A model generated the notes under the pieces. That model made no database searches. It saw nothing but the letters and a program-made list of their open reading frames with translations, and was not told the origin of the DNA. The position numbers were made by a program, and so were the translations under genes. Shown piece after piece: positions 1,343 to 29,303 of a stretch of DNA of 45,582 nucleotides (positions are counted from its first letter, which is position 1; every line of letters starts with the position of its first letter). This DNA is from a virus, in IMG/VR virus record IMGVR_UViG_3300009155_000091, positions 1 to 45,582 of that record, one strand, 5' to 3'.

Positions 1343-4099
1343 TTATTTAATTATTTGTTTCAAGGTATTAGTTGAAAACTCGTTTGATGTTACTTTTATA
1401 TAATATACTCCTGACACAATATTTAACATATCAAGATTATATAAATTAATACCTCCCTTTATTTCAATTTCTTTTTCTAAAACAATTGACCCCTTTGAAT
1501 CTTGAATTTCAATTTTACCATTTCCGATCATGTTTTTATTGTTCAACACAACTTGAAACGATTCTGAACTTGGGTTTGGAAATGTTGAAAAATACCCTTT
1601 TGAATTTCCATTACAAATAACATTGATTGGTCCGTATTCATCACTAACCCCATCTATATCATATTGGATTAATTTATAATAATTGTTTCCGTCAATTGCG
1701 TTTTCATCTTCTGTAGAATAACTTAATTCTTGAGTTGAGTTACCAGCAGAGTTCAACGTTGTTAATTTAGACCAATTCTCACCATCTCTTGATTTAAGAA
1801 CATCAAAGTGAGATGTGTTGTGTTCAGTGGCAGTTCTCCAATTTAAAGTAATAAGATTATCATTACAAGTTCCGTCAAAAGATAATAATTCCACAGGTAA
1901 TGCTCCGTTTGTTATTATATTAAAAAATCTAACTTGAGTTCCACAATTCGATGAATTTGAAACCGTAACTCTAACAGATCCATTAGTTGTTGTTTGAGGC
2001 CAATAAAAAGATATTGATGGTGTATTAGAGTTTGGTATGTTATTCCATAAAGGTGCTGTAACTGACTCTGTGTATGCCCATTGATAATTTGCGTTTGGAA
2101 CAGGTGTTATTGAATATGTTTCTTGTGTTCCTGCAATAATTGTGTTGTTTCCTGATATTGTTGATACAAATCCAACAGACGGATTAACATTTATTGTTGT
2201 TGATGTTGTATTTGAACATCCATTTGATGACACTGTTAGTGTGTATGATTGAGTTGTTGTCGGTGAAGCAAAAGGGCTTGGTGCATTTGGATTTGTTAGT
2301 CCTGTAGATGGAGACCATGAGTATGTTATTGGAGGTGTTGTCGTGCAAGACGAAACAACTTGATTAAAAGCCTGACCTCCACCTAAACTTCCACTTGAAA
2401 TAGTAGTTCCATTACAAGTGATTGTATAATTTGCCGTATTGTCATTCCAAGTTCCTTGTGTTTCAATAAAAAATGTGTAAGGTCCATTTGCCGATGTTCC
2501 AATAGATATAACATTTGTTGTTCCGGTTCCATAATTTCCACCTGAACCTATTATTGATCCCAAATTATTATATAATGTCCAACTTGTTTCATCCATAAAT
2601 CCACCACTTGATATATTAACAACTAAATTACCAGGAGCAGATAAACCACTAACATTAGAAACTAATTGAGTGCTTGATCCATCACATATAGTATTAGAAA
2701 CCGGAGTTACTGTAACCGTTGGTGTTGGGTTAACGGTAACCGTAGTCGAGACACATCCATTACTAAAAAGACCTCCGTTGAAATTTCTAGCATTATAAGT
2801 AGTGGTTGTAGTAGGAGACACCGTGATGGAATTTCCAACACCAATCTGAGTTACACCACATCCATTAATATACCAATAAACCGTTCCAACGGCGCCATTC
2901 GCAGTTAAAGTGGTTGATCCTCCCGAACAGATTGGATTACTTGACTGCGTGATTGATGTTGGTGAAGGGGGTGGTGGTGTAGCACAAGTTAATGCAATTG
3001 AAAATGGACTTGTAGTGCTATACCCATGAACTAATATGTAATAATTTACCCCTACCGATGAATTCCAAGTATAAGACGCAGATGATGAAGAACATATTGG
3101 GCCCCAATCATCATTTCCACCAACACAAGTTAGTGATGAACAATTAGGGCCACTAAATACCGATATTTTACTATCCCATGCGGTTGCACATAATGAAGCC
3201 GTCATTTGTTGTCCATTACCACTAACAACATACCACACACCTGGTTGTGTTTGTGATACATTACAAAAATTATTTTCACCAACACCTGAATTTGTGGCAT
3301 TTACAGTAGTTCCACTTAAACTTTGTCCACAAACAATTGGAGTTGCGTTACAGACTAAATCATTTACAGGTGCTGCAGGTGCCGAACAAGAAAGACATTC
3401 AATGGTTGTTGTCCCACAATTAGATGCTGTCCCGCATGATGAATTGGTATTGTAATGAATATAATAAGTTCCTGACACAGGAGCTGTCCATGTTAAGGGT
3501 GAAAAACCAGCAGCAACCACAGTCCCGTTAGGTGAAGTATGTCTCACTGTAATATAACCACCTAAATTATATGTCGATCTATATTGTCTTCCCGAAACAA
3601 CACTAAAAATGGTATTATACTCCGATTGAAAGGTGCATGAACTTATAATTTGAGCACCTGGTATAGATGGTGCGGTTAACGACCCATAAGAATATATATT
3701 AACACATCCTCCACCACCACCTCCACCAGAACACGAAGCGATACAAGTATGACCTCCAAATGTTGAACCACCAGTAGTTGGTTGTACAGTATTAAGAAGA
3801 ATTGTTCCCGTATTATTTCTAATTTGAACTCTCATTTCAATTGGGTAAATCCCCGATACTGTTCTCCAAACTCTAATTGTTTGCCCACTACTTGCAGTAA
3901 AATTAAATATTGCAGGGCCTAAACCAGATGATAGAGTTATATTACTTAAAACTGTCATTCCATTAACTGAAACTGAAACGGCACCTCCGTTCCAACCATC
4001 ACCCCAAGTGTCCGTTAAATAAATTTGATGTGTGCAAGATTGAGATAAAGTGACGAAACTTGCAAAAAAAACAAAAATTGATAATAATAAATTCTTCAT
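1343..4099 (-). CDS. Large secreted protein with type IX secretion C-terminal domain
   Basis: A 918-residue product. Residues 1-20 (MKNLLLSIFVFFASFVTLSQ) are a signal peptide, so I start here rather than at the ATG at 4120. Next come a DTWGDGWNGG motif seen in Bacteroidetes surface proteins, a G-rich linker, a PPC-like beta domain (GVWYVVSGNGQQMTASLC), and Ig/PKD-like modules rich in T, S and N. A LPVELLSFDGTC...LNWRTATEHN module and a final YFSTFPNPSSESFQVVL...SGVYYIKVTSN segment follow. That last segment is the typical type A sorting domain of the Bacteroidetes type IX secretion system. The expected fate is export through Sec and then T9SS to the surface or medium of the infected cell. Its style is that of a host gene and it is unusual among phage genes. 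Confidence 0.85.
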   Translation of the reverse strand: MKNLLLSIFVFFASFVTLSQSCTHQIYLTDTWGDGWNGGAVSVSVNGMTVLSNITLSSGLGPAIFNFTASSGQTIRVWRTVSGIYPIEMRVQIRNNTGTILLNTVQPTTGGSTFGGHTCIASCSGGGGGGGCVNIYSYGSLTAPSIPGAQIISSCTFQSEYNTIFSVVSGRQYRSTYNLGGYITVRHTSPNGTVVAAGFSPLTWTAPVSGTYYIHYNTNSSCGTASNCGTTTIECLSCSAPAAPVNDLVCNATPIVCGQSLSGTTVNATNSGVGENNFCNVSQTQPGVWYVVSGNGQQMTASLCATAWDSKISVFSGPNCSSLTCVGGNDDWGPICSSSSASYTWNSSVGVNYYILVHGYSTTSPFSIALTCATPPPPSPTSITQSSNPICSGGSTTLTANGAVGTVYWYINGCGVTQIGVGNSITVSPTTTTTYNARNFNGGLFSNGCVSTTVTVNPTPTVTVTPVSNTICDGSSTQLVSNVSGLSAPGNLVVNISSGGFMDETSWTLYNNLGSIIGSGGNYGTGTTNVISIGTSANGPYTFFIETQGTWNDNTANYTITCNGTTISSGSLGGGQAFNQVVSSCTTTPPITYSWSPSTGLTNPNAPSPFASPTTTQSYTLTVSSNGCSNTTSTTINVNPSVGFVSTISGNNTIIAGTQETYSITPVPNANYQWAYTESVTAPLWNNIPNSNTPSISFYWPQTTTNGSVRVTVSNSSNCGTQVRFFNIITNGALPVELLSFDGTCNDNLITLNWRTATEHNTSHFDVLKSRDGENWSKLTTLNSAGNSTQELSYSTEDENAIDGNNYYKLIQYDIDGVSDEYGPINVICNGNSKGYFSTFPNPSSESFQVVLNNKNMIGNGKIEIQDSKGSIVLEKEIEIKGGINLYNLDMLNIVSGVYYIKVTSNEFSTNTLKQIIK

Positions 4100-4262
4100 T
4101 TGTATAAAATTAAAATGCATTAATTGTTATACTCACTTGAAGAATCCTTTTTGGAAACCCCCATCTACCATGGGCCGGTCGAGTTACTATAATAAATACA
4201 AAGAACTACTTGATTGTTGTATATTAATTATCGTGTATTGAGCAAACCACCTATTTCATTTA
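4100..4262 (-). other. Leader region upstream of the secreted-protein gene
   Basis: No gene was found in these 163 nt. A TATTTAT motif (4192-4198) would give a leader of roughly 90 nt. That leader contains a short hairpin, CCCAT(4160-4164)-CTACC-ATGGG(4170-4174), in an otherwise AT-rich stretch. Leaders elsewhere in the window are far shorter, so the hairpin could be regulatory, but this is inference. Confidence 0.35.
4192..4198 (-). promoter_or_regulatory. TATTTAT motif (candidate late promoter)
   Basis: Reads GTATTTATTATAG toward the T9SS-cargo gene. It matches the motif found before many putative virion genes here. Confidence 0.35.
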
Positions 4263-4670
4263 TTATTTTCTAATCTCAACCGTATCAACAGGAATAAGGG
4301 TCACATTTATAACACCTTTTTTTAGAAAATTAAGTTTTTTGGCCGTTCCATAACTTAAATCAATTATCATTTTTGAAGATTTAGGTAATCGATCATTTAC
4401 CTTAACGTAACAAATTGAATCATTATGATGGTTAATAACTTTTAGTATTGTTCCAAACTTGAAGTGTTTGTGTGCGGCGGTTAAACTATCTGCGTAAAAT
4501 CTTTCTCCTGATGCTGTTAATCTTCCCGTCCAATGTTGTCCGTAGTAAGTTGCCAGTCCTTTGTATTCTGGTTTTGTTAAAATAAACGATAATAATAAGA
4601 GTGGTATAAATACCAAAAGTTTATTTAAGATTCCAATTTTTAATTTTAGTTTCAATTTTTCTTTTTCCAT
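4263..4670 (-). CDS. rlpA-like: RlpA-like lytic transglycosylase / double-psi beta-barrel protein
   Basis: The 135-residue product has a basic N-terminus, one hydrophobic anchor (about residues 15-32), then an RlpA-like barrel. The barrel carries GLATYYGQHWTGRLTASGE, TAAHKHFKFGTILKV, VKVNDRLP and IDLSYGTAKKLNFLKKG. The Asp of the VNDR motif and the IDLS segment are conserved in RlpA family members, several of which cleave peptidoglycan glycan strands. Here it would be membrane-anchored and act in the periplasm during lysis or entry. The first 50 nt overlap the end of the upstream gene in another frame; no later Met could replace this start. Confidence 0.8.
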   Translation of the reverse strand: MEKEKLKLKLKIGILNKLLVFIPLLLLSFILTKPEYKGLATYYGQHWTGRLTASGERFYADSLTAAHKHFKFGTILKVINHHNDSICYVKVNDRLPKSSKMIIDLSYGTAKKLNFLKKGVINVTLIPVDTVEIRK

Positions 4671-5871
4671 ATTTTTTTTCCATAATTTGTTGGTGAAGAT
4701 CCCAATTTATAATCGATTCACTAACTTGTTCGTCGTCTTTTGCCATTGCATATAGTTTAGAAATTTTCTTTAACATTTTGTTTGCAATATAATTAAATTC
4801 TTCAAATTTGTCCTCAAAAAACTTAGTTGGATTTTTTTCATACCTCATAGTTCGTGATAAAAACTTTTGTCTAATCTCATTTGTTTTTTGAAGTTGTTTC
4901 ATTTTTTCTTCAGATCCTGGTGGTATCATTCCAAGTTGTGCTCCAAATGTTAAAAAGTCATCCATAGGACCTTGAGTCATTTGCATAAAAAAATCCATTC
5001 TGTTATTTACTAAATCAACATAAACAAGTTCTAACACTTTGTTTATTTTTTCATCAATAGACATGTCAGATGGGTCTTCACCGATGTGTTCTAAAAGAGC
5101 ATCCAATCTATCTTCTTGTTGTTTTAAATCTTGTATAAAATTATCAAAAGTGTAGTTTTTTATTCTTAATAATTCTTTATAAACTATATTGTCCTCTAAA
5201 AAGTCTTTGAATTGTGATTTTGTAATGTTCTTTCTCTTCATAGAATATGCAACCTCTGTTGGTCTAACAAGGTTTTCAATTGCGTGAATGTAATACATAA
5301 ATCTATAAAAAACTCTATCGATTGCTGGTATTGCAAAATTCCCTTTTTGTTGTGTTGCTTGATAAACCGCATCAGGGCCCATACGACTATATTCTTTAGC
5401 TTGTTTATCGTATTTATGTTTTATCTCATGAGCCAAAGCCGATACATGTTCGTCTCTTTCCTCTTCCATTTTAGCGATAAGTTCTTCTGGTTTCCAATTG
5501 TCACCAACAGCAAAAGTTATATCTAAGTTCAAGATGGTTGAAGGTTCATTTATTTTTAAATAAACATCTCTATCAAAACCAAATCTTCCTCCCATACCCA
5601 TTGAAATGATGTCTAAAACCCCCTCTTCATCTTCCATTTCTTCGATTTTTACATTAAGCTCATAAGAGTCGATTCTTATTTTCTTTTTATCACCCAATTC
5701 AAAATCAATTTTACCCTTAAAATTATATCCATCTTGAATGTCGTCTATTGATCTGATGTCATTTTCAACAACATCATATAACATGTCAGCGGCATCCAAA
5801 ATATTTTCAGGAACACCCAAGGCTTCGGTAATCAGTCTTAATTGACTTTCGGTAATAATGATATTTTTCAT
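4621..5871 (-). CDS. Putative head-packaged protein with HEXXH metallopeptidase-like motif
   Basis: A 416-residue product starting MKNIIITESQLRLITEALG. This segment is shared with many genes in the window and ends in an ITE|A site like those cut by T4-type prohead proteases. Around residue 148 is ALAHEIKHKYDKQ, an HEXXH zinc-protease signature inside a predicted helix. About 55 residues later ENLVRPTEVAYSMK could supply a Glu ligand, as in gluzincins. The rest is acidic and helical. A TATTTAT motif lies 5 nt upstream of the ATG. What is seen is the motif and leader; peptidase activity and packaging are inference. Confidence 0.65.
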   Translation of the reverse strand: MKNIIITESQLRLITEALGVPENILDAADMLYDVVENDIRSIDDIQDGYNFKGKIDFELGDKKKIRIDSYELNVKIEEMEDEEGVLDIISMGMGGRFGFDRDVYLKINEPSTILNLDITFAVGDNWKPEELIAKMEEERDEHVSALAHEIKHKYDKQAKEYSRMGPDAVYQATQQKGNFAIPAIDRVFYRFMYYIHAIENLVRPTEVAYSMKRKNITKSQFKDFLEDNIVYKELLRIKNYTFDNFIQDLKQQEDRLDALLEHIGEDPSDMSIDEKINKVLELVYVDLVNNRMDFFMQMTQGPMDDFLTFGAQLGMIPPGSEEKMKQLQKTNEIRQKFLSRTMRYEKNPTKFFEDKFEEFNYIANKMLKKISKLYAMAKDDEQVSESIINWDLHQQIMEKKYGKRKIETKIKNWNLK

Positions 5872-8169: not shown

Positions 8170-9141
8170 TTAATTTTTAAATAGTGTATTCATTGTTTCT
8201 GAAGAAACTTTGGTATCTTTTGTTGGTTGATTTACGTCAGTTACGCTCCATTCAATATTTTGAATTTCTTCTCCACCTCCACCAGGTGTAGGTGTTCCTT
8301 TACACTTGGATTTAATTGCGTTTATTATTACTTCAAAATCAAAGGAGTATCCTCCACCTCCAGGAACAGGACTCGGTGGGTATGGACTTGGATTAGGATT
8401 TGGGTTAGGATTTGGGTTAGGATTTGGTTTTTTATTTTTTGGACATCTCCATCCTGAATTTCTATAACCATCAATATCACTACCCCAACCACATTTCTTA
8501 GCATTTTCTTTTAACTTGGAGGGATCTACTTTTTTTGTGTTTTTTGTTAATTCAGAAAGTGGAACCCATACAAAATCTCTCCATTCACCATCTTGGTCAA
8601 TATCGCCATTTAATGCGTCAAATAAAGTTTCACTATATCTTTGATTATACACTTGACTCAACTTACAAAGATCTGGAATTGTTTTGAGTTTTCTAAGATT
8701 TTTTGCAATTAAAACTTCATCAGTTCCAAGACCTGAAACTGCGGATCTTAGATTGTCTGCAATATCTCTAATTCTATCTATTGAATTTACAGGTTTAGTT
8801 AAATCTGATCTGTGATCTCTGCAAAATTTAAATAATTTTTGAACTCTTTCGGCATATCCACCTCCTGTTGTTAACCAACCTGCCAAAGCGCCAACTCCAG
8901 CACCCATAACGGCTCCAAGTGCGGTTCCAACAACTGGAACTACTGAACCAATACCGGCACCGAGTGCGGCTCCACCTCCAGCACCTGCCATGATTCTACC
9001 TGTAGATTGTCCTGGATCAACATCTTCTTCAATGTCTCCATTTTGTTCTTTGATAATTTTTCTTTCTTTATCAATTCTTTCTTTGTGAAGCGAAAGTATT
9101 CTTTTCATTTCACTTTCTGTCATATGTAACTTATTTTTCAT
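8170..9141 (-). CDS. Putative head-packaged protein with glycine zipper and annexin-like segment
   Basis: A 323-residue product. The N-terminus MTESEMKRILSLHKERI belongs to the leader family shared with 9984-10412 and 27161-27919, with a likely processing site IIKE|Q near residue 33. Residues about 48-92 form a long Gly/Ala stretch with repeated GxxxG spacing (glycine zipper), typical of membrane-inserting segments. Residues about 120-185 (SAVSGLGTDEVLIAKNL...LCKLSQVYNQRYSETLFDAL) resemble an annexin repeat. A PNPNPN linker and a C-terminal SSETMNTLFKN follow, the last shared with the neighbour. An ejected membrane-channel role is plausible but inferred. Confidence 0.65.
   Translation of the reverse strand: MKNKLHMTESEMKRILSLHKERIDKERKIIKEQNGDIEEDVDPGQSTGRIMAGAGGGAALGAGIGSVVPVVGTALGAVMGAGVGALAGWLTTGGGYAERVQKLFKFCRDHRSDLTKPVNSIDRIRDIADNLRSAVSGLGTDEVLIAKNLRKLKTIPDLCKLSQVYNQRYSETLFDALNGDIDQDGEWRDFVWVPLSELTKNTKKVDPSKLKENAKKCGWGSDIDGYRNSGWRCPKNKKPNPNPNPNPNPNPSPYPPSPVPGGGGYSFDFEVIINAIKSKCKGTPTPGGGGEEIQNIEWSVTDVNQPTKDTKVSSETMNTLFKN
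8389..8427 (-). repeat. 12-bp tandem repeat encoding a PNPN linker
   Basis: About three copies of GGATTTGGGTTA-type units on the plus strand. On the coding strand they give the PNPNPN spacer in the glycine-zipper protein. Confidence 0.7.
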
Positions 9142-9181: not shown

Positions 9182-9979
9182 TTAAATATATAAATCAATA
9201 TCAGGTGGAAGTGCTGTAGAAGATCCTCCTCCTTTCGAACCAGATGTATTAGTTCCACCACCTCCACCAACTACGTTTGGTGCCGGGGTTTCAGATTTAC
9301 ACAATTTTGCCGATAGTGTTTTAGATAAAGTATCACTAGTATATTTAACTTTATTTATTACAAAGTTTTTAGTTTTACAATCAAACCAACCAAAATCATT
9401 TCCAAGTTTAAAACTAGCACCAGTACCATCTTTTTTAGGAACAAAACCTGTCCCTTTTGGTATTGTCATTTTTGTACCATCTTGACTTGTTATTGGTTGA
9501 TCATATTTTTGTGTATAACCTAAACCACCTCCAACGGCTTCAGTGCCAAAAGTTGTGGATAAGTTTTTCTTAATCTGAACAGACTTACAAATCTCAGAAA
9601 CCAAGTTTTTATCAGTAATTTTATATTTTTCTCGGCCGTTCATAAGTTCACCTGTTTTACACATAAAATATACCTTAGTTTTGTTGTTCACATATGGAGT
9701 TGGGAATCCTGTATTAGTAATTTTAAGTAATACTTCACCTCCAACATTTCCTTTTGTCGTTGGATATAATTTTGTATTATTACCTACTATTTCAATATCT
9801 TTTTCTTTTCCATCAGCCCCTTTAGCTTTGAATTTTAAATCTTTGGTTAAGGTTACAAATCCTGTTTTATTATCTATTGTAACATTCTGTTCAAGTAAAA
9901 AAGATTTAGTTATTTCACTTTCAACTAAAAAGTTTTTTATTCTTGAATATTGGTTTTCTGTTAGTATTATATTTCCCAT
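9182..9979 (-). CDS. Putative head-packaged protein, 265 aa
   Basis: It starts MGNIILTENQYSRIKNFLVE, a variant of the shared leader. Two candidate processing sites follow, FLVE|S and FLLE|Q, at about residues 20 and 30. The body is rich in beta-strand segments with three similar KLGNDFGWFDCKTKNF-type stretches and several Cys residues. The end is a Gly/Ser-rich tail (GGGGGTNTSGSKGGGSS). No known domain was recognised. It starts 5 nt after the preceding gene stops, so it is co-transcribed with it. Confidence 0.6.
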   Translation of the reverse strand: MGNIILTENQYSRIKNFLVESEITKSFLLEQNVTIDNKTGFVTLTKDLKFKAKGADGKEKDIEIVGNNTKLYPTTKGNVGGEVLLKITNTGFPTPYVNNKTKVYFMCKTGELMNGREKYKITDKNLVSEICKSVQIKKNLSTTFGTEAVGGGLGYTQKYDQPITSQDGTKMTIPKGTGFVPKKDGTGASFKLGNDFGWFDCKTKNFVINKVKYTSDTLSKTLSAKLCKSETPAPNVVGGGGGTNTSGSKGGGSSTALPPDIDLYI

Positions 9980-9983
9980 CTTT

Positions 9984-10412
9984 TTAACTATTAAACATTT
10001 GATTCATTGTTTCTTGACTTGTCGTATTGTCTACCGCCGGTTTTTGATCGGTAGGGTTTGTTGGTGCTTGTTTTGTTGGTTTTAATTTACCTTTACAAGC
10101 TTCCCACGCTGTCGAACTTTTTGCTCCCCAAGCTCCATCTTCAACAAGTTTTGTGGTCAAGACTTCAGCAGGACATTCATCATTCATTCTAATTTGAATT
10201 TTTAAAACTTTTTCTTGGCAGTTAGGTTTTTTTCCTGCACAAGTTGCTGTTGTGTATCTTGCTGCTGTAGGTGTTGTAGGTGTAGCAGCCACTGTAGTTG
10301 TGGTTGTTGTTGTGTTATCTTCAAACAAATATTTGTTTTTGGTTGCCGTTATATGCATTTCCAAAATTCTATTTCTGTCTTCTTCGTTGATTTTGAAAAG
10401 ATCTTTTTTCAT
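9984..10412 (-). CDS. Putative head-packaged protein with Thr-rich linker and PG-binding-like core
   Basis: A 142-residue product from ATG 10412; the frame extends upstream to 10439 but the leader family supports MKKDLFKINEEDRNRILEMH as the start. A candidate processing site KYLFE|DN is followed by a poly-Thr/Pro/Ala linker. The compact domain that follows (IQIRMNDECPAEVL, then VEDGAWGAKSSTAWEACKG) resembles the DGxxGxxTxxA pattern of peptidoglycan-binding folds. The tail ends TSQETMNQMFNS, like that of the 8170-9141 product. A TATTTAT motif sits 16 nt upstream. Confidence 0.6.
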   Translation of the reverse strand: MKKDLFKINEEDRNRILEMHITATKNKYLFEDNTTTTTTTVAATPTTPTAARYTTATCAGKKPNCQEKVLKIQIRMNDECPAEVLTTKLVEDGAWGAKSSTAWEACKGKLKPTKQAPTNPTDQKPAVDNTTSQETMNQMFNS

Positions 10413-10428
10413 AAATGATATTTTTAAT

Positions 10429-10435
10429 ATAAATA
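10429..10435 (-). promoter_or_regulatory. TATTTAT motif (candidate late promoter)
   Basis: Reads GGTATTTATATTAAAAATATC upstream of the 9984-10412 gene. Confidence 0.4.
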
Positions 10436-10449
10436 CCATGAAAAATAAA

Positions 10450-10536: not shown

Positions 10537-10971
10537 CTATTGTTTTTCCATCCAAATTCTAACACTATTTTGTCCTGTAAAATAGTTTTTAAATTGGCAA
10601 TTTTCAATTAAACCTTGTGTTAAGTTGTAATCATATATAGTTCCACTAATATGACCCCAAGGCGTGTTGTTCAAAGTTAAAGAATATCCGAAAGCGTTTG
10701 AATACAAGTTATATGTTGATTGAACTCCATTGAAAGAATACACATTATTTGAAATAAAAACAAGTGTGTCTGATCTAAGTTCTTGATTGAAGTTAGTATT
10801 TAAAATCTTTGTAATAACCCAAGTTGTGTTTTTTAGACTTATGGTAGAGTCCACAGTTATTGTATCAGTGATTATGGGTTGTGGTGGTAATGGTTGTTGT
10901 GGTGTTACATCTTCTTTCACACAAGAAGTAATTAGTAAAACCAATAAAAAAAGTGATGTTATATGTTTCAT
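10537..10971 (-). CDS. Lipoprotein with possible Bacteroidetes surface-export signal
   Basis: The 144-residue product has a type II signal peptide ending LLITSC, so Cys 17 would be lipidated. The mature start CVKEDVTPQQPLPPQP has Lys followed by two acidic residues, matching the K-(D/E)2 lipoprotein export signal described for Capnocytophaga. The rest is a Thr/Ser/Asn-rich beta domain resembling small lipocalin-like Bacteroidetes lipoproteins. Placed on the surface of an infected cell it could affect superinfection or adhesion, but no function is shown. It follows the 10972-11247 gene with no gap and ends before a strong terminator. Confidence 0.75.
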   Translation of the reverse strand: MKHITSLFLLVLLITSCVKEDVTPQQPLPPQPIITDTITVDSTISLKNTTWVITKILNTNFNQELRSDTLVFISNNVYSFNGVQSTYNLYSNAFGYSLTLNNTPWGHISGTIYDYNLTQGLIENCQFKNYFTGQNSVRIWMEKQ

Positions 10972-24406: not shown

Positions 24407-24994
24407 TTAAAATTCTTTTAGATCAAGATCCACATCAATTGGGATTCCGTATTTTTCTAACTTTTTATAAAAAAAGTTATAAACCTCATGTCTTAAATAA
24501 GCTAGAAGATCTCCAGTCTCATAATTACCTTGAGACTCTAAATAAGCCGATTCAATTGTATCATTTACTTCTATTTGATTATCAGTTCCTTCTTCAAACA
24601 CGTTGAAGTCCATTGTTCCTTGATCATCAACATACACAAAAATATAAACTCCAAAGTTTTCTCCTAATCTACCAAACTGATTTACTTCAATAACTTCAAT
24701 TCTTGTATCAAGATTACCCCAATCACTTTTTAGATCGTATATTTCACCGTCAATTTCATTTTTCAGTTTTTCAACTAAATTCTTAAATCCACCGTTGTAT
24801 TCATACCAAATGGGTCTAATAAGTTGGAAGTCTTCGTTTGTATTTTTTCTAATTCCAGATATATCATAAATCACATCATCAAGATGTGGTTCTTCACCTC
24901 TCTTTTTTTGTTGGTTCCATACCGTATAGCAAAGTTTTCGAAGGTTATCTTCGGTCAGTTTGTTATATTGTGATTCTGTAATTATTATTTTCAT
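24407..24994 (-). CDS. MKIIITESQ-leader protein, 195 aa
   Basis: The start is ATG 24994, overlapping the TAA of the preceding gene by 1 nt (TAATG); the frame could begin six nt earlier only at TTG. The leader MKIIITESQYNKLTED is followed by a two-strand/helix body (IEVIEVNQFGRLGENFGVYI, FVYVDDQGTMDFNVFEEG) and a LRHEVYNFFYKKLEKYGIPI end. The body pattern recurs loosely in the next gene (IIYIDTIFDTFDVGD), suggesting divergent paralogs. It is the last of six consecutive genes with this leader. Confidence 0.7.
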   Translation of the reverse strand: MKIIITESQYNKLTEDNLRKLCYTVWNQQKKRGEEPHLDDVIYDISGIRKNTNEDFQLIRPIWYEYNGGFKNLVEKLKNEIDGEIYDLKSDWGNLDTRIEVIEVNQFGRLGENFGVYIFVYVDDQGTMDFNVFEEGTDNQIEVNDTIESAYLESQGNYETGDLLAYLRHEVYNFFYKKLEKYGIPIDVDLDLKEF

Positions 24995-25344
24995 TACCAA
25001 TCTGTTCTTGGATTTTCGTTTATAACATTAAGTAATTTGAATTTGAAATTATTTTTCCCTAAATAGTTTTCCAAATTTAATTTCAAGTCCCACAAATAGT
25101 CACCAACATCAAATGTGTCAAAAATTGTATCTATATAAATAATTATTCCTAACTCAACAACATTATCAGTCTTGTATGCCGTTACCACATCAATTTTTGT
25201 GATTGCTTCGTAGTTATCTCCATATCCACCTTCATCATAATAATCTTCTTCTTTTATGTTATCAGCAATGTCTTTCCAAGCCATATCAACCGCATTTTGA
25301 AATGTTATAGTTTTTAATTGTGATTCTGTAATTATTATTTTCAT
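24994..25344 (-). CDS. MKIIITESQ-leader protein, 116 aa
   Basis: Leader MKIIITESQLKTITFQNAVD. The DNA for the first nine codons is identical to that of the 24407-24994 gene, including the preceding TG, which suggests recent duplication or recombination at the leader. The body resembles its neighbour in strand order (VELGIIIYIDTIFDTFDVGD, then YLWDLKLNLENYLGKNNFKF). Function unknown. A TATTTAT-like TACTATTTATTAG lies just upstream, within the end of the preceding gene. Confidence 0.7.
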   Translation of the reverse strand: MKIIITESQLKTITFQNAVDMAWKDIADNIKEEDYYDEGGYGDNYEAITKIDVVTAYKTDNVVELGIIIYIDTIFDTFDVGDYLWDLKLNLENYLGKNNFKFKLLNVINENPRTDW

Positions 25345-25346
25345 TT

Positions 25347-25898
25347 CTAATAAATAGTAACTAAAGGAACTGTTACATCATATCCTGTAACAGGTAAAAT
25401 TATTTCATTCATGCAATCTTGAACAACATCATTAACTTCTTCTTGGATTTCCCAACCTATATCTTCATCCTCCAAGGCTTGATCTAAGGTTAGATTTCTT
25501 CCATCCTCCATAAGTGTTACGGAACCCCCAGGTAGAGTTTTTCCATATAGAAAAACATCATAATCTCTATATTCCATATTAGTGATTTCCCACTCAAAAT
25601 CATAACCACCAACTGATCTCTCACTAAAATCTTTTGTCGAGAATTTCTTGTTTTTTAATGTATTTATAAATTTTTTAACAAATACCTCATCCCCTACAAG
25701 TTCTTGAAATTCTGTTTGAGCATGTAACTTATCGGTAAATTCGGTTATACCCCAAAATTCAAGTTCATCTCTATCAAATCTAATTTTGTTACCTTTTTCT
25801 AACTCTTTTTTCCAATACTTAATAACCGCACCAATACCTTTATTTCGGTAAGATTCTTTAATAAGACTATATTGTTTATTAGATATTATTATTTTCAT
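25347..25898 (-). CDS. MKIIISNKQ-leader protein, 183 aa
   Basis: Leader MKIIISNKQYSLIKESYRNK with a candidate site LIKE|S. The body is acidic, with FDRDELEFWGITEFTDKLHA, a DYDVFLYGKTLPGGSVTLME strand pair and EVNDVVQDCMNEIILPVTGY near the end. The order (helix, strands, C-terminal helix) is similar to its array neighbours, but identity is low. It overlaps the upstream gene by ATGA. Confidence 0.7.
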   Translation of the reverse strand: MKIIISNKQYSLIKESYRNKGIGAVIKYWKKELEKGNKIRFDRDELEFWGITEFTDKLHAQTEFQELVGDEVFVKKFINTLKNKKFSTKDFSERSVGGYDFEWEITNMEYRDYDVFLYGKTLPGGSVTLMEDGRNLTLDQALEDEDIGWEIQEEVNDVVQDCMNEIILPVTGYDVTVPLVTIY

Positions 25899-26209
25899 GA
25901 CTCCGCTTTGATATATTTTACATCAACATTAAATTTATTTTCAAAAGAGTTTTTAATCATATCTAACACTTTTTCTTTTTTGATTGGGAACCAAGATTCT
26001 AAGTTGTTTAAATATTTTTTTGATATCCACAATCTACCATCAGATTTATCATATTCAATAAACGTGTTCCAAACATCAGTTTTATCCCAAATAACAATAT
26101 AAGAATCAACATAAAAAGGTTTGTTTTCATCTAAGGTATCATCTACGAGTGATTTTATAAAATCATTCAATAGTTTTTTTTTCTGTGATTCTGTAATTAT
26201 TACTTTCAT
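25895..26209 (-). CDS. MKVIITESQ-leader protein, 104 aa
   Basis: Leader MKVIITESQKKKLLNDFIKS. The leader DNA again matches that of the 24994-25344 gene almost base for base. The body contains FYVDSYIVIWDKTDVWNTFI and a C-terminal helix followed by a short strand (FENKFNVDVKYIKAES). It has the size and strand pattern of a minimal member of this family. Start and stop are set by 2-nt spacing upstream and an ATGA overlap downstream. Confidence 0.7.
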   Translation of the reverse strand: MKVIITESQKKKLLNDFIKSLVDDTLDENKPFYVDSYIVIWDKTDVWNTFIEYDKSDGRLWISKKYLNNLESWFPIKKEKVLDMIKNSFENKFNVDVKYIKAES

Positions 26210-26211
26210 AA

Positions 26212-26586
26212 CTATATAATATTGGACCCACTTACCTCTTTTATTTCAACATCAGGAAAAAGTCCTTTGAAGTAATCATAAACTGCGTTTTTTAAGTGTC
26301 TTGATATTATATGATAAGGAATATAATCTTCCATCTCTTTATCTATTGAATAATCGTAATATACGGTTTTTGATGGTATTATATATACAAATAAAGGTTC
26401 TCCAGTTTCGTTCATTAGATAAATTGATCCTGGCCATTCACCCCAACCTTTAACATCTTTAGAAATGGTCTTTAAAAACAACTTCTTATATTTTGGGTAT
26501 TCATCTTCATACTTAGCATCAAAACGATCCCTTTTATAAGTTTCGTTGATTAAATCAAGTTGATGTTGGGTTACAATGATTTTCAT
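26212..26586 (-). CDS. MKIIVTQHQ-leader protein, 124 aa
   Basis: Leader MKIIVTQHQLDLINETYKRD with a candidate site LINE|T. The body has a PGSIYLMNETGEPLFVYIIP strand pair, YYDYSIDKEMEDYIPYHIIS and a C-terminal helix-strand (YFKGLFPDVEIKEV), matching the general layout of the array. A TATTTAT motif lies 5 nt upstream of its ATG, so a promoter may fire inside the array here. Confidence 0.7.
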   Translation of the reverse strand: MKIIVTQHQLDLINETYKRDRFDAKYEDEYPKYKKLFLKTISKDVKGWGEWPGSIYLMNETGEPLFVYIIPSKTVYYDYSIDKEMEDYIPYHIISRHLKNAVYDYFKGLFPDVEIKEVSGSNII

Positions 26587-26591
26587 ATAAG

Positions 26592-26598
26592 ATAAATA
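26592..26598 (-). promoter_or_regulatory. TATTTAT motif (candidate late promoter)
   Basis: Reads AGTATTTATCTTATATG into the 26212-26586 start. The same 17-nt string precedes the 26621-27082 gene. Confidence 0.45.
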
Positions 26599-26613
26599 CT
26601 TCGTTATATAAAA

Positions 26614-26712
26614 ACTCCCCTTAAATTGTAGACCTCAGACAACCCTCACATTGGAACGGGTCATCGTATAAAAGGGGTTTTACTCCCCTTAAATTGTAGA
26701 CCTCAGACAACC
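26614..26712. repeat. 31-bp direct repeat, 68 bp apart
   Basis: ACTCCCCTTAAATTGTAGAC... (31 nt ending CAGACAACC) occurs at 26614-26644 and 26682-26712. The copies straddle the 3' end of the 26621-27082 gene. The 68-nt spacing is not a multiple of three, so the second copy is read in another frame and changes the C-terminus. Confidence 0.92.
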
Positions 26713-27082
26713 ACTCTTCTGTAAGTTGTTGTATTTCAAAGTAGTTAAGTCCAAAAACTTTTTCTAAAAATGACCAAATCTTATGATAATCGATGAAAAC
26801 ATAGTCATTTTTTCTATCGTAAATCATCATATTATTCCCTTTTTCATAACGATATAATTCCAAATCAGGTTTTTCTTCACTCTGAACAACATCCAAATCG
26901 GTAAAAATGTTTAAAAAATCAATAGGAGTTTTAATCTCAACAAGGGTTTTTAAGTTTTCACTACCACCAACCATGTCAGCCGCAGATTCCCAACCTTCGT
27001 ATTTAATCGTATCAATTAAAACTTCATTTCGTTTGTTTTCAAACAATACATTTTTTTGTCTTTCTGTTATGATGATTTTCAT
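26621..27082 (-). CDS. MKIIITERQ-leader protein, 153 aa, with rearranged 3' end
   Basis: Leader MKIIITERQKNVLFENKRNE with a candidate site VLFE|N. The body includes GWESAADMVGGSENLKTLVE, DLELYRYEKGNNMMIYDRKN and the C-terminal helix LEKVFGLNYFEIQQLTEEWL. The end is odd: SEVYNLRGV is followed by KPLLYDDPFQCEGCLRSTI, which comes from a 31-bp direct repeat and its spacer. Without the insertion the protein would end EVYNLRGVFI. It is the first of the six-gene array and has its own TATTTAT motif. Confidence 0.7.
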   Translation of the reverse strand: MKIIITERQKNVLFENKRNEVLIDTIKYEGWESAADMVGGSENLKTLVEIKTPIDFLNIFTDLDVVQSEEKPDLELYRYEKGNNMMIYDRKNDYVFIDYHKIWSFLEKVFGLNYFEIQQLTEEWLSEVYNLRGVKPLLYDDPFQCEGCLRSTI

Positions 27083-27160: not shown

Positions 27161-27919
27161 TTATCCGATTTGTTGTTTTAATTTACCAATTTCTTGTAGA
27201 TAAGCTGTATTATCTTGTGAACTCATCTTACTTTTTAATCTGTTATATTTATTAACCATTTGATTGTAATGTCTTATCGCTTTATTTTTATCTCGTTTAC
27301 CTTGTCTAAATTCTTGTCTAATTTGTGATGCGGTTTTTAAATCTGCTGCTATTTCAGGGTTTTGTGATGTAGGTGTTGTTGGTGTTGGTGTTGTTGGTGT
27401 TGTTGTCGTTGGTGTTGTTGTCGTTGGTGTTGTTGTCGTTGGTGTTGTTGTTCCAGCAGTTTGAACCGGTGCGTCAAAAGTCTCATCACTACCATCAACA
27501 TTTGTTGGTGCTTGGAATGCCGCTGCTGTTGATAATGCGGGTAGTTGTGAAATCTTTTTTATAGCGTCTGGTTTAGTTGCTGGTGTCCAATTTTTAAATT
27601 TTCCTTGTGTTTTATATCCTTTAGCACCAACACTTGTAGGATTTTCCTTTAACTTGAAATAATATTTATCTCCCACTTTTTTATAATCGTAATCCGTATC
27701 CGTACCTTGAAGTAGAACTTCATTGTTTGGTTTTGATGTAGGAGCCACAGTTGTTGTTTGAGTTGTTGTAGGTGCCACAGTTGTTGTTTGAGTTGTTGTA
27801 GGTGCCACAGTTGTTGTTTGAGTTGTTTGTTCAAATAAAACCTCTTTTTTAATTGCCGATTTGTGAAGATTTAAAATTCTATTTTTTTCTTCTTCATTAA
27901 TTATTAATCTTTTGCTCAT
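27161..27919 (-). CDS. Putative head-packaged Thr-rich protein, 252 aa
   Basis: I start at MSKRLIINEEEKNRILNLHK (ATG 27919), 1 nt after the upstream stop; the longer frame begins inside that gene. The leader is close to those of 8170-9141 and 9984-10412 and ends at EVLFE|QTT. Two low-complexity linkers (three TTTQTTTVAP units, later a TTTPTTTTP run) flank a small domain (YDYKKVGDKYYFKLKENPTS...). A basic coiled-coil end (KAIRHYNQMVNKYNRLKSKM) closes it. Looks like a processed, linker-rich internal protein. Function unknown. Confidence 0.65.
   Translation of the reverse strand: MSKRLIINEEEKNRILNLHKSAIKKEVLFEQTTQTTTVAPTTTQTTTVAPTTTQTTTVAPTSKPNNEVLLQGTDTDYDYKKVGDKYYFKLKENPTSVGAKGYKTQGKFKNWTPATKPDAIKKISQLPALSTAAAFQAPTNVDGSDETFDAPVQTAGTTTPTTTTPTTTTPTTTTPTTPTPTTPTSQNPEIAADLKTASQIRQEFRQGKRDKNKAIRHYNQMVNKYNRLKSKMSSQDNTAYLQEIGKLKQQIG
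27370..27450 (-). repeat. 18-bp-type tandem repeat encoding a TTTTP linker
   Basis: Repeated GGTGTTGTTGTCGTT units on the plus strand, about four copies, coding Thr/Pro. Confidence 0.75.
27742..27827 (-). repeat. 30-bp tandem repeat, about three copies
   Basis: GCCACAGTTGTTGTTTGAGT units repeat every 30 nt and encode TTTQTTTVAP decapeptides just after the leader. Confidence 0.88.
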
Positions 27920-27920
27920 T

Positions 27921-29303
27921 TTATGAATGTGTGAATAAGTTGAAGTCCTCATCCTCTTCAGCTCTTCTGAACACAGATTGTGGTAGAACTTGTTGTGGAT
28001 TAGATCCTCCTAAGTTTAAAACCATAAGGTTTGGCATGTCACCAATACATTCTGGTAACATTTGTAAATCTGGGTTATTAACTAACGACAAATATTGTAG
28101 GTTTTCTAAACCACAGATTGCTTCAGGTAGAGATGCAACACATCCAACGAAGTTAATTGCGTTTAGTTGTTTGAATCTCCCAATATCATTAGGAATATTA
28201 AGTGAGATCTTATCTCTTGATGTATTTTTAAAAGTAAGTCTTTTTAAAGTTGTAGGAAGAGTGGCAAAAAACTCATCGAATCCGTAAAGTGCAATAAACT
28301 TAGATGCCGAATCACTTGGATAATCAATCACAATTTTTTCACCTTTATCTCCTGATAATGATTTCATAAACTCAGGTTTGAAGAATTGCTTTAAACCTTC
28401 TTCATTTGTATTTAAGAACTCAATTAAATTGATTTGTCTGTCATCGGCATCCATGAATTGATTATCAGGGAAGTGGAATTGATAACGATTTGCTGGAAGT
28501 CCTGAAACCTCACCAGTTTCTTTTCCGTAAGTTTTGAAAGTTGTTGGTGTGTTTGGAATTACAACATATAAAGGTCCTTTGGCAATGTATCTTTCAAACC
28601 AAGTATATCCAGGTGATGAGGTGCACCAATTTGTTTCTCCTCTTCTTGCCTCATTATGAGATCCACCGTAGAAACAAGCGGCCTCTTTTCCTAATGGTCC
28701 TGTGTTTGAGATTTTAGCAACCGTCCAATCTTGACCTCTATAAACGATGTCGGCTCCAGGGTGAGCAAATGTCTGAGAAGCCTCTTTTTTCTCTGCCGCA
28801 GTTGCCTTAGTTTTTTCTAAACTAAAATCTTTAACTTGGTCATATAAAGTTTCAGGTGTTAGTTTATTGATGTCTCTAAACTCTTGAGATAATCTATTTT
28901 TAAATCTTTCAAACTTTTGAAGGTTTGTTGTTGTCTTATACAAATCCTCCATGAAAAGGTCTTGGAATGACTTTAAAGCCGCCTTATATTGACCTGATTG
29001 TGGATCAGTAATCATTAATGGGTGATCTGCCGGTAACTTAGGTGTAACAAAGTTTTTTAATAACCACTGAGCGTATTTTCCAATTTTAACCTTCTCCATT
29101 TGTTCAGGTTTAACATTATCAATATCCATCCCATCAGGGACCTTTGTAGTTGGATCGGCAGCGATAAGTGCGAATAATGTTTCAAAAGGCATAATACCTC
29201 TTTGACCTCTTTCTTTTGGTTTTACGAACTTATCGAATAATACTTGAAATCTTGAACTTTCAACAATAAGATCTCGTAATAGATTAGTGAATCTAAGTGA
29301 CAT
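27921..29303 (-). CDS. Putative head-packaged protein with C-terminal leucine-rich repeats, 460 aa
   Basis: It starts MSLRFTNLLRDLIVESSRFQ with a candidate site LIVE|S at residue 14. The middle has a conserved-looking domain: EARRGETNWCTSSPGYTWFE, then YIAKGPLYVVIPN and NRYQFHFPDNQFMDADDRQI. Similar segments occur in other large phages, from memory. The last 110 residues hold three to four leucine-rich repeats (GRFKQLNAINFVGCVASLPE, GLENLQYLSLVNNPDLQMLP, DMPNLMVLNLGG). An LRR would give a protein-binding surface, so an injected host-binding protein is a reasonable guess. Confidence 0.7.
   Translation of the reverse strand: MSLRFTNLLRDLIVESSRFQVLFDKFVKPKERGQRGIMPFETLFALIAADPTTKVPDGMDIDNVKPEQMEKVKIGKYAQWLLKNFVTPKLPADHPLMITDPQSGQYKAALKSFQDLFMEDLYKTTTNLQKFERFKNRLSQEFRDINKLTPETLYDQVKDFSLEKTKATAAEKKEASQTFAHPGADIVYRGQDWTVAKISNTGPLGKEAACFYGGSHNEARRGETNWCTSSPGYTWFERYIAKGPLYVVIPNTPTTFKTYGKETGEVSGLPANRYQFHFPDNQFMDADDRQINLIEFLNTNEEGLKQFFKPEFMKSLSGDKGEKIVIDYPSDSASKFIALYGFDEFFATLPTTLKRLTFKNTSRDKISLNIPNDIGRFKQLNAINFVGCVASLPEAICGLENLQYLSLVNNPDLQMLPECIGDMPNLMVLNLGGSNPQQVLPQSVFRRAEEDEDFNLFTHS

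Follow-up and report, generated by a model that had tools for sequence, protein, structure and literature searches.

The cargo gene and its domains

The window, by which is meant the whole stretch of 45,582 nucleotides analysed in this study, comes from an IMG/VR virus record without terminal repeats (G000). On its minus strand lies a gene whose product carries the signals of a type IX secretion system (T9SS) cargo, and a conserved leader precedes it. The start equal to the ATG at 4099 is used by most relatives when the homologues are compared, and 4099 is likely the start of the gene. The features of the cargo gene are as follows.

1343..4120, minus strand: T9SS cargo gene; the open reading frame 4120..1343 gives 925 aa, the ATG at 4099 gives 918 aa
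4043..4099, minus strand: signal peptide, residues 1-19, with Gln20 at +1 (hydropathy/charge heuristic)
3725..4036, minus strand: DTWGDGWNGG domain, residues 22-125, kept in the phage family and in host T9SS cargo
2984..3724, minus strand: two Cys-rich beta domains, residues 126-372, PPC-like, unnamed by Pfam
2726..2968, minus strand: Ig_7 (CHU_C-associated) domain, PF19081
1580..1900, minus strand: LPVELLSF module, residues 734-840, with an FnIII-like fold
1346..1582, minus strand: T9SS type A C-terminal domain (CTD), TIGR04183 and PF18962 over cut-off, dN/dS 0-0.45

The sequence-only reading had proposed a product of 918 residues at 1343-4099 with a signal peptide, a PPC-like domain, Ig/PKD-like repeats and a T9SS C-terminus. 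The product held (ATG at 4099, or at 4120 with 925 aa), as did the signal peptide by the heuristic, and the DTWGDGWNGG, LPVELLSF and FPNPSSESF...GVYYIKV motifs are present as it had written them. The Ig/PKD-like repeats held in part, with Ig_7 called by Pfam at 31.9 bits. For the PPC-like domain, Pfam made no such call in the cargo at E<=1. In addition, the protein matched no PHROGs family at E<=0.01, structural families included.

The N-terminus of the cargo, MKNLLLSIFVFFASFVTLS-QSC, has a positive n-region and a hydrophobic core of 3.08 by the same heuristic, and Q20 is invariant across 26 homologues. Gln at +1 is the pattern of Bacteroidota SPI substrates (PMC5837995), and the cargo, with Gln at its likely +1, resembles them. 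The C-terminus passed the profile check with two curated models: PF18962 (Pfam) scored 30.7 bits against a cut-off of 27 (E 3.9e-7) and TIGR04183 (NCBIfam) scored 29.5 bits against a cut-off of 23. By these two models the type A sorting domain occurs only once in the whole record. The gene product is a T9SS type A-labelled protein with a Bacteroidota-type signal peptide. This is shown for the signals themselves, while export, surface location and function are inferred.

The AF2 model of the CTD is all beta (pLDDT 78). Residues 941-1156 of PorU are among its best matches (Z 9.7 over 161 residues), but the rmsd is 10 and similar scores are reached by many FnIII chains. Confidence in the full-length AF2 model is modest, and fold searches give generic matches. 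For example, Foldseek with the full model returned only generic Ig/FnIII chains with low TM-scores, the best being GhpA of Aureispira, so nothing was inferred from it.

Against ten relatives the cargo has a dN/dS of 0.14-0.27 overall and below 0.5 in each domain. Purifying selection acts on all of its domains, the CTD included. Relative to L007 the Ig_7 region is near-identical (dS 0.08) and the CTD is far (dS 1.8), and with L009 the opposite is seen. Because divergence jumps from domain to domain in this way, the domains have been swapped between phages, across lineages too.

Evidence for a phage gene

Homologues of the cargo were found at 16 viral loci with a single-protein query and at 56 with an alignment query. 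More than 50 IMG/VR contigs carry them, in contexts of up to 436 kb. The window's lineage has a fixed gene order (methyltransferase, NUDIX, lipoprotein, kinase, phosphoesterase, gene 1, RlpA-like, cargo, small genes), in which the cargo neighbours metabolic rather than virion genes. The record also encodes an SbcC/gp46-like protein, a sigma factor and DNA methyltransferases, together with a DnaJ-like protein and a glutamine synthetase homologue, the last two named from their sequences without a named profile. Homologues occur in several unrelated contexts as well: L007/L110/L134 (152-436 kb), where the slot lies behind a 744-aa structural-looking protein; L121-L123, where it lies directly behind a gp23-like capsid gene; and L103/L107, L015/L131/L139, L109 and L113. 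Genes for gp23-like capsid proteins are present in large relatives, and none was found within the 45.6-kb window.

The codon use and GC3 of the cargo gene agree with the phage. Among cellular sequences, the nearest homologue lies on the chromosome of a Flavobacteriia MAG (JAPLEV010000019.1, L018), a genome that also has 12 PorP-family and 40 type B matches. The homologue is 67% identical over 484 aa (residues 5-487) and, like the cargo, has the LPVELL module and ends in a type A-like tail. However, it differs in being 1200 aa long, in adjoining RecJ-like and subtilase-like genes and in lacking the leader. In the tree the phage sequences and this homologue form one clade with moderate support, apart from other Bacteroidota. 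The possibility that the region is host DNA in a chimeric assembly was rejected, given the conserved synteny in tens of contigs and the phage-like codon use.

Several other observations were made on these genomes. Immediately upstream of the leader, the window (4263-4670, minus strand) and many relatives encode an RlpA-like protein of the double-psi barrel type with a single TM segment; named by sequence only, this is a possible lysis or envelope gene. A small lipoprotein (10537-10971, minus strand, lipobox LITSC) is conserved in about 25 relatives and is a candidate superinfection-exclusion lipoprotein. Many otherwise different window proteins share an N-terminal peptide, MKIIITESQxxxLIxE or ..INEEEKNRILxLHK (minus strand, 4621-5871, 9182-9979 and 24407-27082; also 8170-9141, 9984-10439 and 27161-27952). 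This peptide is also found in the relatives L145 and L146 and could be a head-targeting or prohead-protease leader. Lastly, T9SS-cargo-like proteins were seen in two non-Bacteroidota bins, a Candidatus Gracilibacteria contig (L029) and a Neisseriaceae MAG (L027), which are probably mis-binned.

The conserved leader

The sequence CTCGACCGGCCCATGGTAGATGGGGGTTTC(N)GATTCTTCAAGTGAG upstream of the gene is near-invariant in every viral lineage. It belongs to an element of about 55 nt, of which the hairpin noticed in the sequence-only reading forms part. The features of this region, all on the minus strand, are as follows.

4191..4198, minus strand: TATTTATT, late-promoter-like motif, about 8 nt 5' of the leader
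4123..4193, minus strand: conserved leader, match to model R1 at 91.4 bits, one copy; single copy by pattern too
4132-4183, minus strand: structured core of the leader (RNAalifold and pair counts)
4183-4181/4134-4132, minus strand: P1, 3 bp
4180-4177 and 4174-4170 with 4164-4156, minus strand: P2, 9 bp, GG bulge at 4176-4175
4155-4153/4147-4145, minus strand: P3, 3 bp
4144-4135, minus strand: junction strand, conserved, 10 nt

When all IMG/VR contigs were scanned, the two patterns used matched 61 and 59 stretches with a single copy in each, on about 65 contigs combined. With the covariance model, every leader-bearing phage record that was tested showed a single strong copy, the 635-kb LR745206.1 among them, and LR756500 and LR756502 had none. 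Outside the phages, no leader was found by pattern with 3 mismatches in any of 399 Flavobacteriales genomes. The model gave a single weak match over 395 Bacteroidota genomes (29.9 bits, within a coding gene), which was taken as chance. No Rfam family exceeded its gathering threshold, the best being snoZ118 (24 against 48 bits, E 0.069).

RNAalifold of 27 distinct leaders gave a three-way junction in which 98.5% of cells pair, with a P2 loop of GG[UAC]A[GU]. Two-sided changes numbered 16 against 4.8 in shuffles; most fall at one P3 pair, and the kinship of the sequences weakens the counts. Compensatory changes occur in P1 and P3, and indels (-1 and +3) occur only in the P3 loop. It is likely, from this comparison, that the leader forms a three-way-junction RNA structure with covariation. 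Folding of the single 163-nt leader was no better than shuffles (z -0.29), so the hairpin held by comparison of leaders and not by single-sequence folding. A pseudoknot between the loop GG[U]AG and the junction CUUC showed no covariation by eye. An upstream ORF, M[VEA][DY]GG[FS], was rejected, as it is the first and second codon positions that change, third positions are near-fixed and the -1 indels break the frame; stop patterns also count against a leader peptide. The claim that an unusual leader points to separate regulation is strongly borne out by the conservation of the leader, in the absence of expression data.

The motif TATTTAT[AT] lies 13-15 nt ahead of the leader in most phages, and also ahead of genes for the tail sheath, the tube and the capsid region. 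Where loci contain structural genes, TATTTAT was found upstream of 41 of 78 genes, compared with 7.1 in shuffles and 4 inside genes. The reverse complement, too, was fairly frequent (18 of 78). Most simply, the motif could be read as a late promoter and the leader as the 5' end of the mRNA, an inference made without expression data.

Proteins behind the leader

By the hydropathy/charge heuristic, each of the 40 distinct starts that follow a leader was signal-peptide-like, compared with 5 of 68 window ORFs. The picking of starts among downstream ATGs, with signal peptides preferred, favours the count of 40. Most leader-led proteins are homologues of the window's cargo. The other passengers include unrelated multi-domain proteins with the short tail described below (L153, L203), proteins of 318 and 357 aa with this tail (L166, L202), a protein with a CUB domain that follows the capsid gene (L171, L175, L189), an SprB-type repeat protein of more than 1463 aa (L209) and a fibre-like protein with no known tail behind a capsid gene (L211). 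In LR745206.1 the passenger has only 117 aa, consisting of a signal peptide and TIGR04183 (24.2 bits, cut-off 23). Because unrelated signal-peptide proteins also follow the leader, it marks a slot for exported proteins and not one family. Two endonuclease-like (homing-type) genes were seen between the capsid gene and the leader slot in L171 (1626-4077), and also in L175 and L189.

About half of the phage homologues and most of the unrelated passengers end in a shorter tail, ...NLxGQEVxxxxxGIxIEIYEDGSxKRxIR, which is missed by the T9SS models. The same module, at full length, is common in Flavobacteriales, where it ends proteins of many lengths, and for this reason the tail is regarded as host-type. 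That it acts as a T9SS signal is inferred and not proven.

A second cargo with a type B tail (TIGR04131/CHU_C) scored above cut-off in 9 phage records, made up of two shorter contigs and every one of the seven in the first set that reach 150 kb; it was also above cut-off in LR745206.1 and G431. In most records the protein is conserved, has a signal peptide and measures about 815-820 aa, and SprB repeats with CHU_C were found in the one copy scanned. With genes named from their sequences, it lies between the tail tube/sheath and baseplate genes in G010 and directly before the type A gene in G022. No homologue of the PorP/SprF partner was found in the phages. It is like the SprB-type gliding adhesins of Flavobacterium in its SprB repeats and CHU_C/TIGR04131 tail, but differs in its size (about 820 aa), in being phage-encoded and in having no SprF/PorP partner. 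A conserved phage protein with SprB repeats and a type B tail was also noted in L145 (8470-10917), L146 (7756-10215), L147 (7515-9974, inside the tail module), L149 (5545-7767), L150 (7769-10207) and L212 (5947-8145). In L007 (10461-12669) three more signal-peptide proteins follow the cargo, one with a glycine-rich ALK/LTK domain and the last with a type B tail.

Discussion

Phage genes for T9SS cargo are already known. Type A sorting domains in Cryophage genes were called a unique occurrence, and use of the host system was proposed (PMC7468147, 2020). The window's gene resembles these in its type A sorting domain and highly variable cargo. However, the Cryophage cargo (an endoglucanase, GH39 and a PA14 protein) is encoded by flexible genes, whereas here a core gene has Ig/Cys-rich domains. 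This gene is preceded by a conserved RNA-like leader and has a type B partner in the large relatives, and no leader is described in the relevant sections of PMC7468147. ORFs with BACON and T9SS sorting domains also occur in crAss-like phages of Bacteroidota, near head genes (PMC6949934, 2019), but these are gut phages with other domains and with no leader in the sections of that paper that bear on it. BFVD has a viral entry that takes its name from the sorting domain. The moraphages, which are large T4-related phages of aquatic Flavobacteriia (PMC12619734, 2025), are like the window in being freshwater, T4-like phages of a Bacteroidota host with glutamine synthetase and DnaJ; this is a likeness only, based on the two shared genes and without marker-gene placement. 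In contrast to the window, no T9SS cargo was found in searches of PMC12619734. Neither the type A/type B pair nor the leader was found in the literature searched, which is no proof of novelty.

The reading favoured here, with a probability of about 0.62, is that the gene encodes a phage-made T9SS cargo serving as a surface adhesin or shield, with the leader as a cis-acting RNA. Late in infection the transcript would start just upstream of the structured leader. The product would cross the inner membrane via Sec, the signal peptide would be cut before Gln20, and the type A tail would direct the product to the host T9SS for delivery to the cell surface or the medium. There its Ig/Cys-rich beta domains may have an adhesive or shielding role, most likely in blocking superinfection, or may take part in cell-cell attachment. 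The leader would govern the stability or translation of this single mRNA. The signals, selection, synteny and leader conservation with covariation are the directly supported parts of this reading, while late timing, export, display and function are inferred. The earlier claim that the phage uses T9SS to place the protein on or outside the cell is supported to that extent. In F. columnare, resistance to phage is accompanied by a loss of gliding, and components of the gliding machinery are the suspected receptors (PMC7345892). Superinfection exclusion or receptor masking is plausible on these grounds. The contigs are metagenomic, and many of them overlap in origin and are fragments. Points against this reading are the shorter tail of many homologues and passengers, the passenger L211 with no known tail and the missing PorP/SprF partner. 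Also against it, Immuto, a complete isolated T4-like Flavobacterium phage, has neither the leader nor the type B cargo, so the system is dispensable for some phages of this kind. In Immuto (L244, 7127-8767) a 547-aa Ig-like repeat protein without a clear signal peptide occupies the slot, two genes after the capsid gene.

Four other explanations were considered. First, the protein may be a virion component (a capsid or tail decoration, or a tail fibre) whose signals are relics of a host surface-protein origin. The slot directly behind the gp23-like capsid gene (L121-L123, L211) or the 744-aa protein (L007/L110/L134), the type B cargo within the G010 tail module and the frequency of Ig/FnIII domains in phage tails favour this. 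However, the signal peptide is kept in 40 of 40 cases, the CTD is under purifying selection, exported proteins would be unavailable for cytoplasmic assembly, and in the window's lineage the gene sits among metabolic genes. The argument of the sequence-only reading that a tail fibre would not need such signals is reasonable and untested, and the same slot adjoins capsid or tail genes in other phages. A virion role is unlikely but cannot be excluded.

Secondly, the CTD protein could be a decoy that floods the T9SS translocon or shuttle, blocking export of host adhesins and so removing phage receptors and gliding. Of the rivals this one is of most interest, since in LR745206.1 the passenger, the smallest of all, is a bare tail behind a signal peptide. 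The large phages of the set also bear both type A and type B tails. Nevertheless, large variable passengers under purifying selection would be needless for a pure decoy, and this explanation is improbable.

Third, the leader could be a conserved joint for cassette recombination and not a regulatory RNA, which would account for the differing passengers. The slot and the leader stay the same while the passenger changes (L121, L171, L211), and domains are mosaic between phages. Base pairing is not needed for such a joint, however, and the compensatory changes in P1 and P3 and the restriction of indels to the P3 loop count against it, so that it too is doubtful.

Lastly, a recently gained host gene carried passively without phage function, as the 67% identical Flavobacteriia homologue might suggest, is very unlikely given the phage-like codon use and GC3, a dN/dS well below 1, the fixed synteny and a single phage clade with the host sequence inside it.

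Beyond the favoured reading of a phage-made surface cargo, a bolder one could as easily be wrong as right. In it, the leaders form a new class of cis-regulatory RNA in phages: each genome would have one late mRNA with this compact three-way junction at its 5' end, and the junction would mark a dedicated "surface display" slot. The exported protein behind it would be regulated via a conserved host factor, and the phages would swap cargo (adhesins, CUB proteins, SprB-repeat proteins, bare T9SS tails) to remodel the surface of the infected cell. The leader offers a testable new RNA element, without a counterpart in Rfam or the host genomes searched (apart from the weak coding-gene match), and a sequence handle for finding such genes whatever the protein. 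If the favoured reading is right, many large Bacteroidota phages would, besides lysing their hosts, dress infected cells with their own surface proteins via host secretion as a conserved trait.
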